Below are positions 2,096 to 32,331 of a DNA stretch of 64,000 bases, in pieces; position 1 is the first letter of the stretch, and every line of letters starts with the position of its first letter. The translations under genes and the position numbers were made by a program. Under the pieces are notes generated by a model. That model searched no databases. It was not told the origin of the DNA and saw only the letters and a program-made list of their open reading frames with translations. Source of the DNA: Desulfurispora thermophila DSM 16022 (GTDB lineage Bacteria > Bacillota > Desulfotomaculia > Desulfotomaculales > Desulfurisporaceae); contig NZ_AQWN01000003.1 of the NCBI RefSeq assembly GCF_000376385.1, positions 124,001 through 188,000 on the forward strand. Direction: 5' to 3'.

Positions 2096-3537
2096 TGTTA
2101 CGAGCACCTGTTATGCCTCTGCCGCCGCGTCGTTCCCAGTACGGGGTAGCACCTGAACTGGTTCGCAAGCGGGCCGCAGAATTGCCGGATATGGTATCCG
2201 TACTGGTGCGGGATCTTTTCCCGGATGCAGCACCGGTTATTTACCCGGGTGAAGGTGGCCTGGAGGTGATCCGGACAGCCACCCGGAAGCAGATGGAAAA
2301 AGTGGACCTGAGCATGATCAAGCCCGGCGACTCTGTGAATGTACTTGGTTCACATCACGGGTTCACTTTGCTGGGTGGAGCGCCTTATGCCGAAATGCTC
2401 AAGACCATCCGGGATGTTGTGCGGGAACGCACAGGCTGTACGGATATACGCCTGCGGGTAGGTGTGGGACTGCGTTTCCGGGAGAGTGAAGAGTATATTA
2501 AGTCATTTGGCCTGGACGAATACTATGAAGGCAAGGCCGCCGGAGTGGCTCCGGTGGATGAGGGGGTTGCCATAGAGACCGAAATTGGTACTCTTTACGG
2601 CATCAAAAAAATATACGATGCCCGGTGGATTATCCACGCCCATAACAGTGACGTGCGGGAAGTGCACTTTCACCGTCAGGTGGACCGGGCGGTAAAACCC
2701 TTCGGTATGTCTTATGCGCGCATAGAAACCCGTTCCACTTATCACCAGAACCTGGGTCCGCGGGCGGCTAACTTTGTGGCCAGGGCAATCTTTGACTCTC
2801 CTTTTGTGCAGGAGAAATTTGCCTGCGCTATATTTCTTATGATGTCGCCCAGCGGGGTGGTAGGGGTAGACGCGGACAACGATCTTTATGCGCTCAACGA
2901 CCGGGTTACTTATTGGGGTTGCCGGGATTATGGCAAGATGATGACCCTGTTGGGTGAGATTGACGAGGCCATCACCATTCTGGACTTCCCTAGCCCGGTG
3001 CCATATGTATTTGCGGCGGGGGTCATTTTCGCCAACTTTGCAGGGGCTAATCGGGACATTTTCGACTTGGACGATCCGTTGCCGCCGTACACCTGGTATA
3101 CGGAGGCCTTTTACGGTGAAGACGGGCGGCCTTTGATTGAAGGGGTACCGCCAGTAAACCCGGCGATTAAAGTAGTTATCCATAATTATGCCTGGGGTGG
3201 GTATCCCAGTGCCTTCTTTACCGAGCACATTCCGACCGTTGTAGTGGGTCGGGAACAGGCAGAGTTGCTTAACCGGGACCCGCAAAACATCAGCTACACC
3301 AAACACGCGTTGCTTGCGGAGGATTTGGACACGGCAGTGTGTTTTGCTAAACGGGTTGCGGGTACGGATAAGATCCTTGCCTTTGATGGTGCTTCAGGAG
3401 CTTTAAACATCAGCCGTTCCCTGGGCGAATACCTGCTGCAAAAAGCTCCTCTTGTTTCGCGTCGAGTAGACGAGGAACTGCTGCCCAAATGGTTGAAGCA
3501 GAGGGGTATCGATCCTTCTCGATTTAAGATTTGTTAA
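2095..3537 (+). CDS. Unrecognised 480-residue protein; possible remote LarA-like enzyme
   Basis: I do not recognise the family with confidence. The ATG overlaps the stop of the ferredoxin gene. No signal peptide or membrane segment is seen. Histidines cluster at His87/88, His181, His183, His191, His193 and His217. His191, Lys201 and His217 have the same 10- and 16-residue spacing as His174, Lys184 and His200 of lactate racemase LarA, where the Lys carries the nickel-pincer nucleotide and the last His binds nickel. The preceding stretch (about 120-180) also looks loosely like the LarA first domain, but nothing matches LarA His108 at the expected place and the C-terminal half shows no LarA motif. 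LarB and LarC are encoded 18 kb downstream, which makes the idea worth testing. An unrelated soluble enzyme is equally possible. Confidence 0.6.
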   Translation: MLRAPVMPLPPRRSQYGVAPELVRKRAAELPDMVSVLVRDLFPDAAPVIYPGEGGLEVIRTATRKQMEKVDLSMIKPGDSVNVLGSHHGFTLLGGAPYAEMLKTIRDVVRERTGCTDIRLRVGVGLRFRESEEYIKSFGLDEYYEGKAAGVAPVDEGVAIETEIGTLYGIKKIYDARWIIHAHNSDVREVHFHRQVDRAVKPFGMSYARIETRSTYHQNLGPRAANFVARAIFDSPFVQEKFACAIFLMMSPSGVVGVDADNDLYALNDRVTYWGCRDYGKMMTLLGEIDEAITILDFPSPVPYVFAAGVIFANFAGANRDIFDLDDPLPPYTWYTEAFYGEDGRPLIEGVPPVNPAIKVVIHNYAWGGYPSAFFTEHIPTVVVGREQAELLNRDPQNISYTKHALLAEDLDTAVCFAKRVAGTDKILAFDGASGALNISRSLGEYLLQKAPLVSRRVDEELLPKWLKQRGIDPSRFKIC

Positions 3538-25621: not shown

Positions 25622-26231
25622 TTAAAGTTTCCAAGTTGAGCATAGGAAAATGCCTATTTCACTATCCTCTTCATATACCAGGGGGTTTAGCCCATACTTG
25701 ATAAGGACTTCCTTCAAGTTGCTCCGGATAAATTCTTCGTAAAAGCTTCCCTCCAGTCGCTCTACCAGGGTTACTCCCAGCCGCCAAAAACGCCCGGCGG
25801 GCGCATTTATCCAGTCCATGATCAGCACCCTGTATCGCGTTACCCGGCGCATTTCGGCCAGGGCGCGTTCCCTCTGTAGCCGGGGCATTTCATGCAGGGC
25901 CATGCAAATGACGCTTATATCAAAAGAATCATCATCAAACTCCAGCTTAGAAGCATCCATAAGCTAAACTTTTAGCCTTTCGGGTGGCTCGGGACAGCAT
26001 GGCCGGGGAGAAATCGATACCTGTGACGCGGGCACCGCGTTTGGCCAACTCCATGGCCATAATGCCTGTACCGGTACAAACATCCAGTACTGCTGAATTG
26101 CTTACATCTCCCAAAAGTGAGGCAGCCTTTATTATCCTGGGGTACATGGCTGGAAGCACAAAAAAGTCATATATTGGTGCTGCAATATTAAAGAAGCGGC
26201 GGATACGGTGTGTCTGTTCGCTGTGAGGCAT
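25622..26231 (-). pseudogene. Class I SAM-dependent methyltransferase, broken by deletion/frameshift
   Basis: Two frames make up one protein. The upstream part (26231-25947) has the UbiE-like start and the SAM-binding motif VLDVCTGTGIMAMELAKRG, then ends soon after MLSRATRKAKS. The downstream part (25960-25622) resumes with MDASKLEFDDDSFDISVICMALHEMP and runs to a normal end. In intact relatives about 8-10 residues join these two motifs; here only about three codons remain and the frame changes, so roughly 20 bases seem lost. The two pieces overlap by 14 bp. The gene is probably inactive unless the break is a sequencing error. Confidence 0.75.
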
Positions 26232-27151: not shown

Positions 27152-27260
27152 TTTCAGACGTTTTTTTGCCAGCAAATAGTGTATGCTAAAAAATAGAGCG
27201 GGTCGGTCGGTCTCGCACTTTTAGGATTGCTAGGTTTTGTTGTATAAGGGGGTGCTTGTC

Positions 27261-27935
27261 ATCTGCGGCCGCTATACGCTGACTGTTTCTCCGGAAAAAA
27301 TCAGCCAGACCTTTGGCGTTATGGTTCAAATCCAGTACGGCCCCCGCTATAACATTGCACCCGGGCAAACAGTGCCGGTCATCGGAGGTGAGGGAGCCGG
27401 GCGGTGGCTGGCGCTCATGCGCTGGGGACTTATTCCCCACTGGGCTAAAGAAGCCAGCATTGGTCACAAGCTGATTAACGCCCGGGCGGAAACCATGGCC
27501 GATAAGCCTTCTTTCCGGGATTCCTTTCGCCATCGCCGTTGCCTGATCCCTGCCGATGGCTTTTACGAGTGGAAAAGGGATGGCAAATCCAGCATTCCGT
27601 ACAGGATTGTGCTGCCCGGGCAGGAGCTGTTTGCCTTTGCCGGTCTCTGGGACAGGTGGGATGCGCTCGAGGGGAGCGTTTTCTCTTTCACAATAATCAC
27701 TACCGCCGCCAGCCCGGCCATGCAGGGGATTCACGCCAGAATGCCCGTGATCTTGAGTGACGAGCGGGAGTATGCCGCCTGGCTGGAAGGCTCGGATATT
27801 GGAACGCTGGAAAAAATGCTTCGCCCCTATGAGGGAAGGCTGCACATTTACCCGGTCTCCCGCCTGGTCAACTCGCCCAGGAATGATATGCCGGAACTGG
27901 TGCGGGAGCGAGAGGATTCAATCAAAGAGCGATAA
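27261..27935 (+). CDS. SRAP-domain protein (YedK/HMCES), abasic-site crosslinking
   Basis: SRAP proteins attach covalently to abasic sites in single-stranded DNA through the thiol and amine of Cys2, exposed when Met1 is removed. The family core is complete: CGRYTLTVSPEKI at the N-terminus, RYNIAPGQTVPV, INARAETMADKPSF, RCLIPADGFYEWKR and IHARMPVIL (the active-site His). The codon before the Cys is ATC, and AAGGGGGTG ends 6 bp before it, so ATC at 27261 is proposed as the start. GTG at 27252 would give three extra residues before the essential Cys and leave it internal. A terminator follows. Confidence 0.88.
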   Translation: MCGRYTLTVSPEKISQTFGVMVQIQYGPRYNIAPGQTVPVIGGEGAGRWLALMRWGLIPHWAKEASIGHKLINARAETMADKPSFRDSFRHRRCLIPADGFYEWKRDGKSSIPYRIVLPGQELFAFAGLWDRWDALEGSVFSFTIITTAASPAMQGIHARMPVILSDEREYAAWLEGSDIGTLEKMLRPYEGRLHIYPVSRLVNSPRNDMPELVREREDSIKER

Positions 27936-28122: not shown

Positions 28123-28147
28123 CAGCAGAATAAGGTAGGTGAGTGCG

Positions 28148-29884
28148 GTGGGAATTACAGCTCTGCTACAGGAATTAATGCAAAGCTATACCAGTGCCCG
28201 TAGGGAAAGTTTTAAGAACCATCCATTGCACAACCTTCTCAAAGAAATTATTCACCAACTGGAAGAGTTGCCGGTCATACGCGACTATCCGGAAATAAAA
28301 GTTAAGGGTTCATTGGGGAAGGGCAATTGGGTTACGGTGCCCTGGATAGCATTACTGGATTCACGCATCACTACGTCTACGCGGAATGGCGTTTATATTG
28401 TCTTTTTGTTTGCTGCCGACATGTCGTTTGTTTACCTGACGCTAAATCAAGGTGTAGAAAATATATATGAACAATTTTGGACGAAGGAAGCAAAGGAGGT
28501 TCTGCGCAGTAAAGCGGTGGCTCTGCGGCAACGTCCGGATGTACGTCGACTACCAGGTTTTCGCCTGGACTGGGATATAGACCTGGCGGCGGACAGCGGG
28601 GTGGGCGCAAAGTATGTGGACTCAACAATAGCGTATAAGGCTTATGAGCGTACGGCTTTGCCTGCAGACAAAAGCCTGGCAGAAGATATTGCCGCTCTGC
28701 TGCAGGTGTACCGCGCATACGCGGATGAAGAAGGCACTACAGCCTCCAGTACAACTGCTGTTTTTCATGCGGATCCTGTGGAAAGGACAGGTGAAAGTGG
28801 CCTGAAAAGGCTCATTGACCAGGCATACCAGCGCATTACAGCCAGGGGATTCAGTTATCCCAGAGCGGAATTCTCTGCTTTTTGTGTCTCCTTAAAGAGC
28901 AAGCCTTTTGTGCTCTTAACCGGCATATCGGGAACCGGGAAAACCCGACTGGTGGAGCTTTTGGCACGTCAGTTTGGGGTTAGCGAGTATACCATTGCCG
29001 TACGCCCTGATTGGAGTGACAGCACGGATTTGCTGGGCTACCGGGATTTACAGGGGAATTTTCGTCCCGGCCCCTTGCTGGAAATATTAAGAGAAGCTAA
29101 TGCTCACCCGGATAAACCGTACTTTATTTGTCTTGACGAGATGAACCTGGCTCGAGTGGAGCATTATTTTGCCGAGTTTTTAAGTGTTATAGAAAAGCGT
29201 GACCGTTTGGAAGGTAAAATCGTAACTCCGCCGGTGTTGGGAGGTCTGGTCAGGGACAGTTCCTGGTCAGAGGTATATATTTCCGATAATGTGTTTATTA
29301 TCGGCACAGTTAATATGGATGAAACTACCCATCCTTTTAGCCGCAAGGTTTTGGACCGGGCCAATGTATTTGAATTTAACCATGTGGACCTTACATATCG
29401 CGTATATCCTCAGAAAGAGTTTGATGGAGTTTTGGATTGGACACCCCTACGCCCGGCTTATTGCCGGCTGGCGGAATTCTATAATCAGGATCCCCCTTTT
29501 TTTAATCAAGTCATTGCTGTGCTTCAGGAGCTGAACGCAATTTTGGAACCAGGTTATTTCCACATTGGTTACCGGGTGCGGGATGAAGTGTGTTTATTCC
29601 TCTGGCATGCTCGGGAAGCCGGGTTAGTGGATGACTTGAGTCTTGATCTGCAGATACAGAGCAAAATTCTTCCCAGAGTGCAGGGGAGCTCAAGCACTAC
29701 CAGACAGGTACTTGTCAAGCTCTGGAATTGGGTGACTGGTCTGGCTGTGGCCGAGGATGATCCCGACCTGCTGGGCAGAACAGCAGAACCACCGGAAGAT
29801 GTCCGCTATCCCAAAACTGCGCGCAAGATAAGTGTGATGCTGCGGCGTCTGGAAGAAGACGGATACACATCATATTGGGTGTGA
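28148..29884 (+). CDS. McrB-like AAA+ GTPase subunit with N-terminal MrcB_N (DUF3578) domain
   Basis: The 578-residue protein starts with an MrcB_N-type domain (about 1-165, with IKVKGSLGKGNWVTVPWIALLD). This domain is thought to recognise the target, often modified DNA. The AAA+ motor has Walker A GISGTGKT at 259-266, Walker B ICLDEMN with Asp330/Glu331, and the McrB signature NMDETTHPFSRKVLDRA. McrB-type motors hydrolyse GTP to move DNA and activate the nuclease subunit. GTG at 28148 is chosen because AAGGTAGG lies 8 bp upstream; GTG at 28139 would overlap that site. The nuclease gene begins 8 bp after its stop. Confidence 0.88.
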   Translation: MGITALLQELMQSYTSARRESFKNHPLHNLLKEIIHQLEELPVIRDYPEIKVKGSLGKGNWVTVPWIALLDSRITTSTRNGVYIVFLFAADMSFVYLTLNQGVENIYEQFWTKEAKEVLRSKAVALRQRPDVRRLPGFRLDWDIDLAADSGVGAKYVDSTIAYKAYERTALPADKSLAEDIAALLQVYRAYADEEGTTASSTTAVFHADPVERTGESGLKRLIDQAYQRITARGFSYPRAEFSAFCVSLKSKPFVLLTGISGTGKTRLVELLARQFGVSEYTIAVRPDWSDSTDLLGYRDLQGNFRPGPLLEILREANAHPDKPYFICLDEMNLARVEHYFAEFLSVIEKRDRLEGKIVTPPVLGGLVRDSSWSEVYISDNVFIIGTVNMDETTHPFSRKVLDRANVFEFNHVDLTYRVYPQKEFDGVLDWTPLRPAYCRLAEFYNQDPPFFNQVIAVLQELNAILEPGYFHIGYRVRDEVCLFLWHAREAGLVDDLSLDLQIQSKILPRVQGSSSTTRQVLVKLWNWVTGLAVAEDDPDLLGRTAEPPEDVRYPKTARKISVMLRRLEEDGYTSYWV

Positions 29885-29892
29885 ATTGTATT

Positions 29893-32331
29893 ATGGTTAC
29901 CAATCTGTTGATTATAGAAACCGATTACTTCGACGTTATTTGGAAAGGTCCGCGGCCGGAAAAAGTGCTGCAGGTTCTGCCGTCATTGCAGGCGGGTAAT
30001 GTTGCTAAGACAGTTATCCGGGGGAATTATAACTATCTGGCAATTTACCACAGTGAGTTGGGTGAGTTGGGGCCGGAAGTAAAGCATCCACCCTTGTTTT
30101 TTGAACAGCAGAACTATGAGTTGATCGTGGAAACGAAAAAAGCTGGTCATTTAAGCGTGTGGCACGAAAACCCGCTACTGAGGTCGGCTGTCCGGCCAGT
30201 TGACCGTTATGGGAAAGTCTATTCAGCTATCATAAACTTTGGCAGTGAAGTGGGAAATTCGGAGTTTGTTTTTCTCTGGAACGGGCGCCAGGTGCTAACT
30301 GTCGATATTGAGACATTCCCGTCCAAAATTGATTATCGTTTAGATTATGAGCAAATGTTGCAGGAAGTTCATACCGGGGTTCTGGGTTTGGTTTTCAATG
30401 TACTGACCAAAACATACCGTGCGGTTTCTTTCCGCAAATCCGGGCCAGCGCCAACTGGTGTGGAGTGGATGGCCATACTGCGTTATCTGATTAGGGACCT
30501 GGAAGTGGCAGTTCAAACTGTGGCGCGTCATCCTCACCATGCTCTGGTGCAGGCCGAGCGGATGTGCCGTTTGGATCAGGTACGCCGCCCGGCAAGAACA
30601 GCCAGGAACTGGTTGTTGCGTCACCCAGAGCAGTGGCAGGTTATCAACAGTAAAGTCCCACAACCGGTTTACGGCGGAAAGATTCCTGCTACCCATAAGC
30701 AAATAACCTATGATACACCTGAAAACCGCTTTGTACGCTGGGTCCTGGAACAAATACTTAAACGCTTGAGATATTTAGGGACAAAATACCGCCAGCAGGC
30801 ACATTGCTCCAGCCAGCAGGAGGTAAGTGCTTTTTTTCTTGAGTGTGAGACCAGAATAAAACGGCTGCTACAATTGAATTTCCTCAAAAATGTAAAGAAC
30901 GAGCATTTCAAATATAACATAACTTTGGTTTTGCAGTTTGGTGCTGGTTATCGAGAGGTGTTGCGTTCTTATTTGTTGCTACTCCGCGGTTTAAACATTC
31001 GGGGTGAAGTTTTGCGGGTGGGGTTGAAATCTATACATGAGCTTTACGAATACTGGTGTTTCTTACGGCTCAGGGAAATTCTCAACCACTATTGCCAGCT
31101 GCGCTCTCAAGATATTATTAGCGTACAGGGAAACGGGATTACGCTGAAACTAAAAAAGGGGTCGGACAGTCGCATCATTTTTCAATCCCCAGATGGCGCG
31201 TTTATTGAGCTGGGTTATAACGCGTATCCCGATGTTCATTCCCCCACAACGCCCCAGCGTCCGGATATGCTGCTAACTTTGGACCGTAAAACGCCAGGTG
31301 GGCGGCACCGGTACATCATGGATGCCAAATACCGGATTGATACAAGTTCTGAATATATTAGAAGGTACGGTGCACCTGGCCCCAGGGAAGAGGATATTAA
31401 TGTCATGCACAGGTACCGCGATGCTTTTCTGGCGGGTGATTCGGTCAGACAGGTGTATTCCCGGGATGTTCTGGGGGCGTGCATCCTTTTCCCCTGGAGG
31501 GGTGATTTCATACAGCACCACTTTTACCACAGCCTTTCCAAAGTGGGGATTGGAGCGCTTCCCTTTCTGCCAGGCGCAACCGGTTTAGTGGAACAATTTC
31601 TCAGGAGGTTGCTGGAGTGGCCAAATACAGCCCATATGGACCGTGCCATATTGCCGCGGGACCACGAGGTTTTTTGGGGACGGCGTTACCGCAACAACCC
31701 GGTGCTGGTGGGGACGCTGGGCCGGAAAAAGCGACGTGAACGCCTGGAATTTGCCCGAAGGGCGGGTTACTATCACATTCCAGTGGATAAATTTTCCGCG
31801 ACCAGGTTGGGGTTTGAGTATGTGGCGTTTTTTGTGGATGGCTGTGTGGAGTGTTTTGCCCAGACAGGTGAGACCACAGTGGTGAGGGAAAGGGATTTAC
31901 CCGGGATTACTGAACTGCGACCGATACACGGCGCTGGGGATAGGCTTTATTACAAAATAAACCTTTTGCCGGAAAGCTGGCAGTCTTTAGACCCGCCCAT
32001 TACGAATCCGCTCAAGCGCCGTTTTGATTTTATAGGTACCACTCTGGAAGCATTGCTTACTGCGCGAACTATTGATGAACTGCGCCTCAAGCATGAGACA
32101 GAGCGGCGATTGCTGGAAGCGCTAAGGGCGTACGGTATAGCCTTTGAAGTGATTGCGCTGGATGATGGTCGTTGGGAATTACTGCTGGCTGGCAAAAAGA
32201 CAACAGTTCGCCCGCAAATTAGCGCTGATGGTCTGGAAATCTGGATCGCCGGGGCGACCAGTCCGCACCGGGTTCCGGGCAGTATTGTTAGACAAAGGCC
32301 GGAATACGTGGTTGAGCTGTTAGAGGGTTGA
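29893..32331 (+). CDS. McrC-like DUF2357 nuclease subunit (PD-(D/E)XK)
   Basis: The 812-residue DUF2357-family protein is the usual partner of MrcB_N/McrB motors. A PD-(D/E)XK nuclease core is visible: RPDMLLTL at about 456-463 and MDAKYRID at 476-483 (Asp477, Lys479). The first 350 residues are the DUF2357 part that should contact the motor. About 300 further residues after the nuclease are unrecognised; the family is often near 500-650, so the tail is unusually long. ATG at 29893 is used, although GTG at 29875 overlapping mcrB is possible. No DNA methyltransferase is adjacent, which fits a type IV-like enzyme that cuts modified or foreign DNA. Confidence 0.82.
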   Translation: MVTNLLIIETDYFDVIWKGPRPEKVLQVLPSLQAGNVAKTVIRGNYNYLAIYHSELGELGPEVKHPPLFFEQQNYELIVETKKAGHLSVWHENPLLRSAVRPVDRYGKVYSAIINFGSEVGNSEFVFLWNGRQVLTVDIETFPSKIDYRLDYEQMLQEVHTGVLGLVFNVLTKTYRAVSFRKSGPAPTGVEWMAILRYLIRDLEVAVQTVARHPHHALVQAERMCRLDQVRRPARTARNWLLRHPEQWQVINSKVPQPVYGGKIPATHKQITYDTPENRFVRWVLEQILKRLRYLGTKYRQQAHCSSQQEVSAFFLECETRIKRLLQLNFLKNVKNEHFKYNITLVLQFGAGYREVLRSYLLLLRGLNIRGEVLRVGLKSIHELYEYWCFLRLREILNHYCQLRSQDIISVQGNGITLKLKKGSDSRIIFQSPDGAFIELGYNAYPDVHSPTTPQRPDMLLTLDRKTPGGRHRYIMDAKYRIDTSSEYIRRYGAPGPREEDINVMHRYRDAFLAGDSVRQVYSRDVLGACILFPWRGDFIQHHFYHSLSKVGIGALPFLPGATGLVEQFLRRLLEWPNTAHMDRAILPRDHEVFWGRRYRNNPVLVGTLGRKKRRERLEFARRAGYYHIPVDKFSATRLGFEYVAFFVDGCVECFAQTGETTVVRERDLPGITELRPIHGAGDRLYYKINLLPESWQSLDPPITNPLKRRFDFIGTTLEALLTARTIDELRLKHETERRLLEALRAYGIAFEVIALDDGRWELLLAGKKTTVRPQISADGLEIWIAGATSPHRVPGSIVRQRPEYVVELLEG

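Follow-up and report, generated by a model that had tools for sequence, protein, structure and literature searches.

The SRAP (YedK/HMCES) gene of Desulfurispora thermophila DSM 16022 at positions 27,261–27,935 (+ strand) of the window, the whole 64,000-nucleotide stretch of DNA analysed here, is very probably a working abasic-site crosslinking gene whose translation would start at an AUC codon. The gene is intact, and a genome-wide search revealed only one SRAP copy. Its reading frame is open from an in-frame TAG (27,231–27,233) to the stop codon at 27,933–27,935 and matches Pfam family PF02586 over the full length of the profile (1–214 of 214), with 246.8 bits against a cut-off of 27.1. The active-site residues Asn75, Glu105 and His160 of YedK (PMC9436759) align with the N of LINAR, the E of GFYEW and the H of GIHAR, respectively. 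Counted from the ATC, the protein has 223 residues after the initiator Met, and dN/dS against relatives is 0.11–0.13.

The codons following the TAG read GTT TTG TTG TAT AAG GGG GTG CTT GTC ATC TGC. Profile alignment to the family Cys identifies the TGC (27,264–27,266) as the codon of the N-terminal cysteine, which is essential in YedK (PMC9436759) and is residue 2 of the window protein provided that the ATC (27,261–27,263) is the start. The ATC lies 6 bases downstream of an extended Shine–Dalgarno (SD) sequence, AAGGGGGTG (27,246–27,254), the spacer being CTTGTC (27,255–27,260). The initial annotation had placed an ATC directly before the Cys of an SRAP gene, at this distance from the same motif and with no ATG, GTG or TTG in that position, and both readings hold; its coordinates and statements are correct, except that it overlooked the in-frame TTG codons at 27,237 and 27,240.

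The gene upstream encodes an alpha/beta hydrolase and ends 109 bases before the ATC. Downstream, there is a McrBC-like pair comprising a MrcB_N + AAA_5 protein (28,139–29,884, + strand), labelled PDC-M26A by PADLOC, and a DUF2357/PDDEXK_7 protein (29,875–32,331, + strand), whose genes overlap by 10 bases. Elsewhere in the window, at 25,622–26,231 on the minus strand, two overlapping ORFs in different frames together resemble, by eye, one SAM methyltransferase, possibly with a frameshift.

The codon preceding the Cys was compared across relatives. The order was represented by 113 genomes, 41 of which had an SRAP match, and a class-level search returned the identical 113 genomes; the distinct N-termini of the order comprised 21 with ATG, eight with TTG, one with GTG and seven with ATC, plus one that was masked. 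A wider set, drawn from the order, a phylum sample, named genome contigs and viral contigs, contained 234 distinct N-termini with the Cys, after rows identical over 120 bases had been merged and fragments lacking the N-terminus left out: 194 had ATG, 21 GTG, 12 TTG and seven ATC, and no other codon occurred. Two Cys-less rows were set aside from this count, a masked one (L141) and L201 (genome G386), an SRAP in a frame from about position 421 that reads M-S-G-R-F, with Ser replacing the essential Cys2. Since 227 of the 234 N-termini carry a canonical start at exactly this position, the codon before the Cys is the start throughout the family. Distant relatives do carry an ordinary ATG-TGC.

The seven ATC rows are the window gene, the genes of G022, G008 and G084, two copies in G085 (Desulfofundulus thermosubterraneus DSM 16057, genus g9 of the sample being taken as Desulfofundulus) and a truncated gene in G051. 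The window genome belongs to a different family of the same order than Desulfofundulus. The two nearest intact relatives share 69 and 72% identity with the window SRAP, both D. thermosubterraneus copies share 73%, and all of them carry ATC at the same codon, pointing to more than coincidence. On a phylogenetic tree built from 95 of the 99 rows meeting the length and score criteria, the six intact ATC genes group together on a single branch with an SH-aLRT of 99, requiring one change of codon; the truncated G051 gene was excluded from the tree, the codon counts and the dN/dS calculations. In the latter gene (L133, Cys at 3,048), the SRAP ends about 66 residues after the Cys and a dinB-like stretch is fused in frame upstream, so that SRAP loss also occurs within the clade. 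Searches for the ATC-type SRAP pattern gave no matches in the viral contigs and none among 82 genomes from the class to which G115 belongs. ATC thus occupies the place of the start codon in one clade, and it is not a sequencing slip. The comparison with relatives, proposed as a check of the initial annotation, thus gave ATC-TGC in all seven N-termini of the nearest clade, with a strong SD at equal spacing; the observation is confirmed, and its interpretation as a start is supported.

Several species share this AUH codon at the predicted start, and in each it follows an extended SD with the same motif and at the same proper spacing. Duplex energies were calculated with a sequence that we take to be the anti-SD, the 16S rRNA 3' end having been sought in G000 and G051 with no match. 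Within 4–20 bases upstream of the ATC they ranged from −12.5 to −15.5 kcal/mol in the seven sequences, with −13.9 kcal/mol for the window gene.

Two other genes served as controls. GlmS, which also begins with Met-Cys-Gly, has ATG directly before the Cys (ATG-TGY) in all six genomes searched, and ATC is therefore neither a habit of Cys-start genes nor a sign of a changed code. The infC gene, a well-known case of an AUU start, reads as ATT-started in nine of nine loci of the order (L142–L150; a tenth genome yielded no infC), including AAGGAGGTTGATAAT-ATT-TCC-AAG in the window genome, which indicates that weak AUH starts are in use in this order.

Initiation could proceed as follows. The extended SD helix would position the 30S subunit with AUC in the P site, where the initiator fMet-tRNA would read it with a third-position mismatch, probably with a yield below that of AUG. 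The fMet would be deformylated and, because Cys is small, the Met would be taken off by methionine aminopeptidase, leaving Cys2 as a free N-terminus able to attack abasic sites. Since the enzyme needs an N-terminal Cys, the start could not shift, and with an immovable start the loss of the ancestral start codon would have left the gene with its old position and a weak codon. With one UTR, AUC and other weak starts gave 5–20% of AUG in C. butyricum, 7–17% in C. sporogenes and 0.1–0.3% in E. coli, while with another UTR six alternative starts reached 40–100% in the clostridia (PMC9680021). The initial annotation had called a natural ATC start rare and functionally forced. Both descriptions fit, but what Cys2 forces is where translation starts; the letter C itself is not forced, as all other relatives make do with ATG, GTG or TTG at this codon.

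Whether the ATC is in addition a selected throttle, keeping SRAP low and tying its synthesis to IF3 stringency as for infC, is a question compatible with an AUC start, as it involves no other start site. The codon has been kept although fourfold degenerate sites are only 0.35–0.44 identical between the window gene and the others, synonymous sites are near saturation and ATG is one base away, and in seven of eight internal all-Ile columns the codon varies. The SDs of the clade are also stronger than those of the other SRAP genes of the order (median −13.9 versus −12.0 kcal/mol, n = 7 versus 30, p 0.005, with related sequences counted as independent), and YedK is scarce in E. coli (0.176 ppm in a table of PMC9841429). 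However, at the rate of the family only 0.24 start-codon switches are expected in the clade, and retention of ATC may therefore be due to chance; moreover, the remaining one of the eight internal Ile columns is likewise all ATC, and one codon is kept at 15 of 83 conserved degenerate residues. Conservation in the clade is thus statistically weak by itself as evidence for the ATC start and is no proof of a throttle, and we regard such selection as possible, albeit rather unlikely. A more specific version is likewise rather unlikely: a conserved throttle would hold the yield down and tie it to the IF3 level in the manner of infC, limiting the amount of a protein that forms long-lived crosslinks and whose gene, in D. 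thermosubterraneus, follows that of the error-prone polymerase, dinB. Another idea, that ATC-TGC escapes the AUGUG double-start ambiguity of ATG-TGC described in PMC9841429, was considered and is not favoured, because the table of that paper does not predict yedK to be ambiguous and ATGTG is retained in GlmS of these genomes.

The dinB gene lies directly upstream of both D. thermosubterraneus SRAP copies, its stop codon being 38 bases before the ATC; that of the L126 copy matches the NCBIfam model of DNA polymerase IV with 377.8 bits. The dinB coordinates are 293–1,450 in L127 and 1,524–2,681 in L126, and a shared gene precedes each, which points to a duplicated dinB-SRAP block. Coupling to dinB as a general explanation is ruled out, because the window gene follows the hydrolase mentioned above.

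Concerning the start site itself, translation could begin at the upstream in-frame GTG (27,252–27,254) or at one of the two TTG codons (27,237–27,242), with the extra peptide being cut off or a free N-terminal Cys being unneeded. The GTG is a normal start codon in frame, and the codon at its position, −4 (three codons before the ATC), is GTG in five of the seven clade sequences and TTG in one, G008, where it is the sole canonical candidate. SRAP proteins were, in addition, formerly proposed to act as autopeptidases. In the seventh sequence, one of the two D. thermosubterraneus copies (G085b), codon −4 is GTA, and none of the 36 codons from the in-frame stop to the Cys is ATG, GTG or TTG; a canonical start is therefore impossible in this intact gene, where an ORF from the first ATG would encode 169 amino acids and lack the first 55 residues, including the catalytic Cys. 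Codon −4 itself lies inside the SD of the ATC, and a start there would have scant SD of its own in six of seven sequences (−0.3 to −3.2 kcal/mol with the same assumed anti-SD, the latter value being that of the window; G022 is the exception with −8.2 kcal/mol). The TTG codons, absent in frame from G008 and G085b, would put 8–9 residues before the Cys. As the initial annotation had argued, the GTG would bury the Cys, making it residue 5 (M-L-V-I-C), behind L-V-I even without the Met; with Met-Leu, Met-Phe, Met-Pro or Met-Ser N-termini, Met removal would leave the Cys unexposed. Active-site mutants of YedK lost the Met all the same (PMC9436759), so that self-processing is neither needed nor seen in these data, and in all 227 N-termini outside the clade the start is directly before the Cys. 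We therefore judge the GTG and the TTG codons to be unused, a start at any of them being highly improbable.

The chance that the ATC reflects a sequencing error, or a decaying gene deprived of its former ATG, is close to negligible: although ATT precedes the Cys in two of 47 N-termini of a Paenibacillales genus and the G051 gene of the clade is truncated, the ATC is common to independent assemblies of several species, six of the genes are intact, dN/dS is 0.09–0.30 over the 15 pairs of these six with dS up to about 2 for the window gene versus the others, and the window genome has no second copy. Both upstream starts and error or decay were rejected.

The Paenibacillales cases came from a pattern scan that matched 14 of 392 genomes, with SRAP accounting for two of the 14 loci. 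The 47 distinct N-termini of the genus concerned, a set partly overlapping the 234 rows (e.g., G475 and G436), comprised 41 with ATG, three with TTG, one with GTG and two with ATT. One ATT gene (L297) is truncated. The other (L298 in G841, Cys at 1,514 on the minus strand) is intact and has no canonical start in frame; a second copy in that genome has ATG, as do near sisters of L298 behind an almost identical leader. The weak ATT start in Paenibacillales looks like a recent, sporadic loss. The window clade differs in that its ATC is conserved and, in the window genome, the gene is single-copy.

To our knowledge, very few genes other than infC have a natural AUC start that is conserved within a clade. 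The dsg gene of Myxococcus xanthus (infC, encoding IF3) starts at AUC, as the window SRAP would, and a literature search for this start found no paper with that phrase; titles and abstracts of the open-licence literature likewise yielded no mention of an SRAP gene with a non-canonical start. With E. coli YedK and human HMCES the window SRAP shares the full-length Pfam match, the active-site Asn, Glu and His and the Cys beside the start, whereas the start in the family of these proteins is ATG (GTG or TTG in some). Among non-canonical starts, infC (AUU/AUA) and E. coli pcnB (AUU) are, like the window SRAP, chromosomal genes with a weak AUH codon and a strong SD kept across species (PMC13009471), but in the window gene the third base is C, the product is a repair protein and the chemistry of the N-terminus fixes where translation must begin. 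Conserved non-canonical starts with extended SDs also occur in S. aureus cvfC1 (AUU) and ccpN (AUA), whose yield in poor medium was about 10% of that from AUG (PMC13009471); the window gene differs from them in its AUC codon, a start predicted from sequence. A putative AUC start has been listed for E. coli CDS177 (PMC12350097). Alongside the known AUU and AUA starts, the window SRAP most likely represents a conserved start at AUC.

Because the chemistry of the enzyme pinpoints the start at single-residue resolution, the claim is testable by a single peptide or reporter. Gene callers limited to ATG, GTG and TTG would assign a wrong N-terminus to the window gene, and in G085b they would lose 55 residues together with the catalytic Cys. 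Enzymes with an N-terminal Cys could act as rulers for hidden weak starts.
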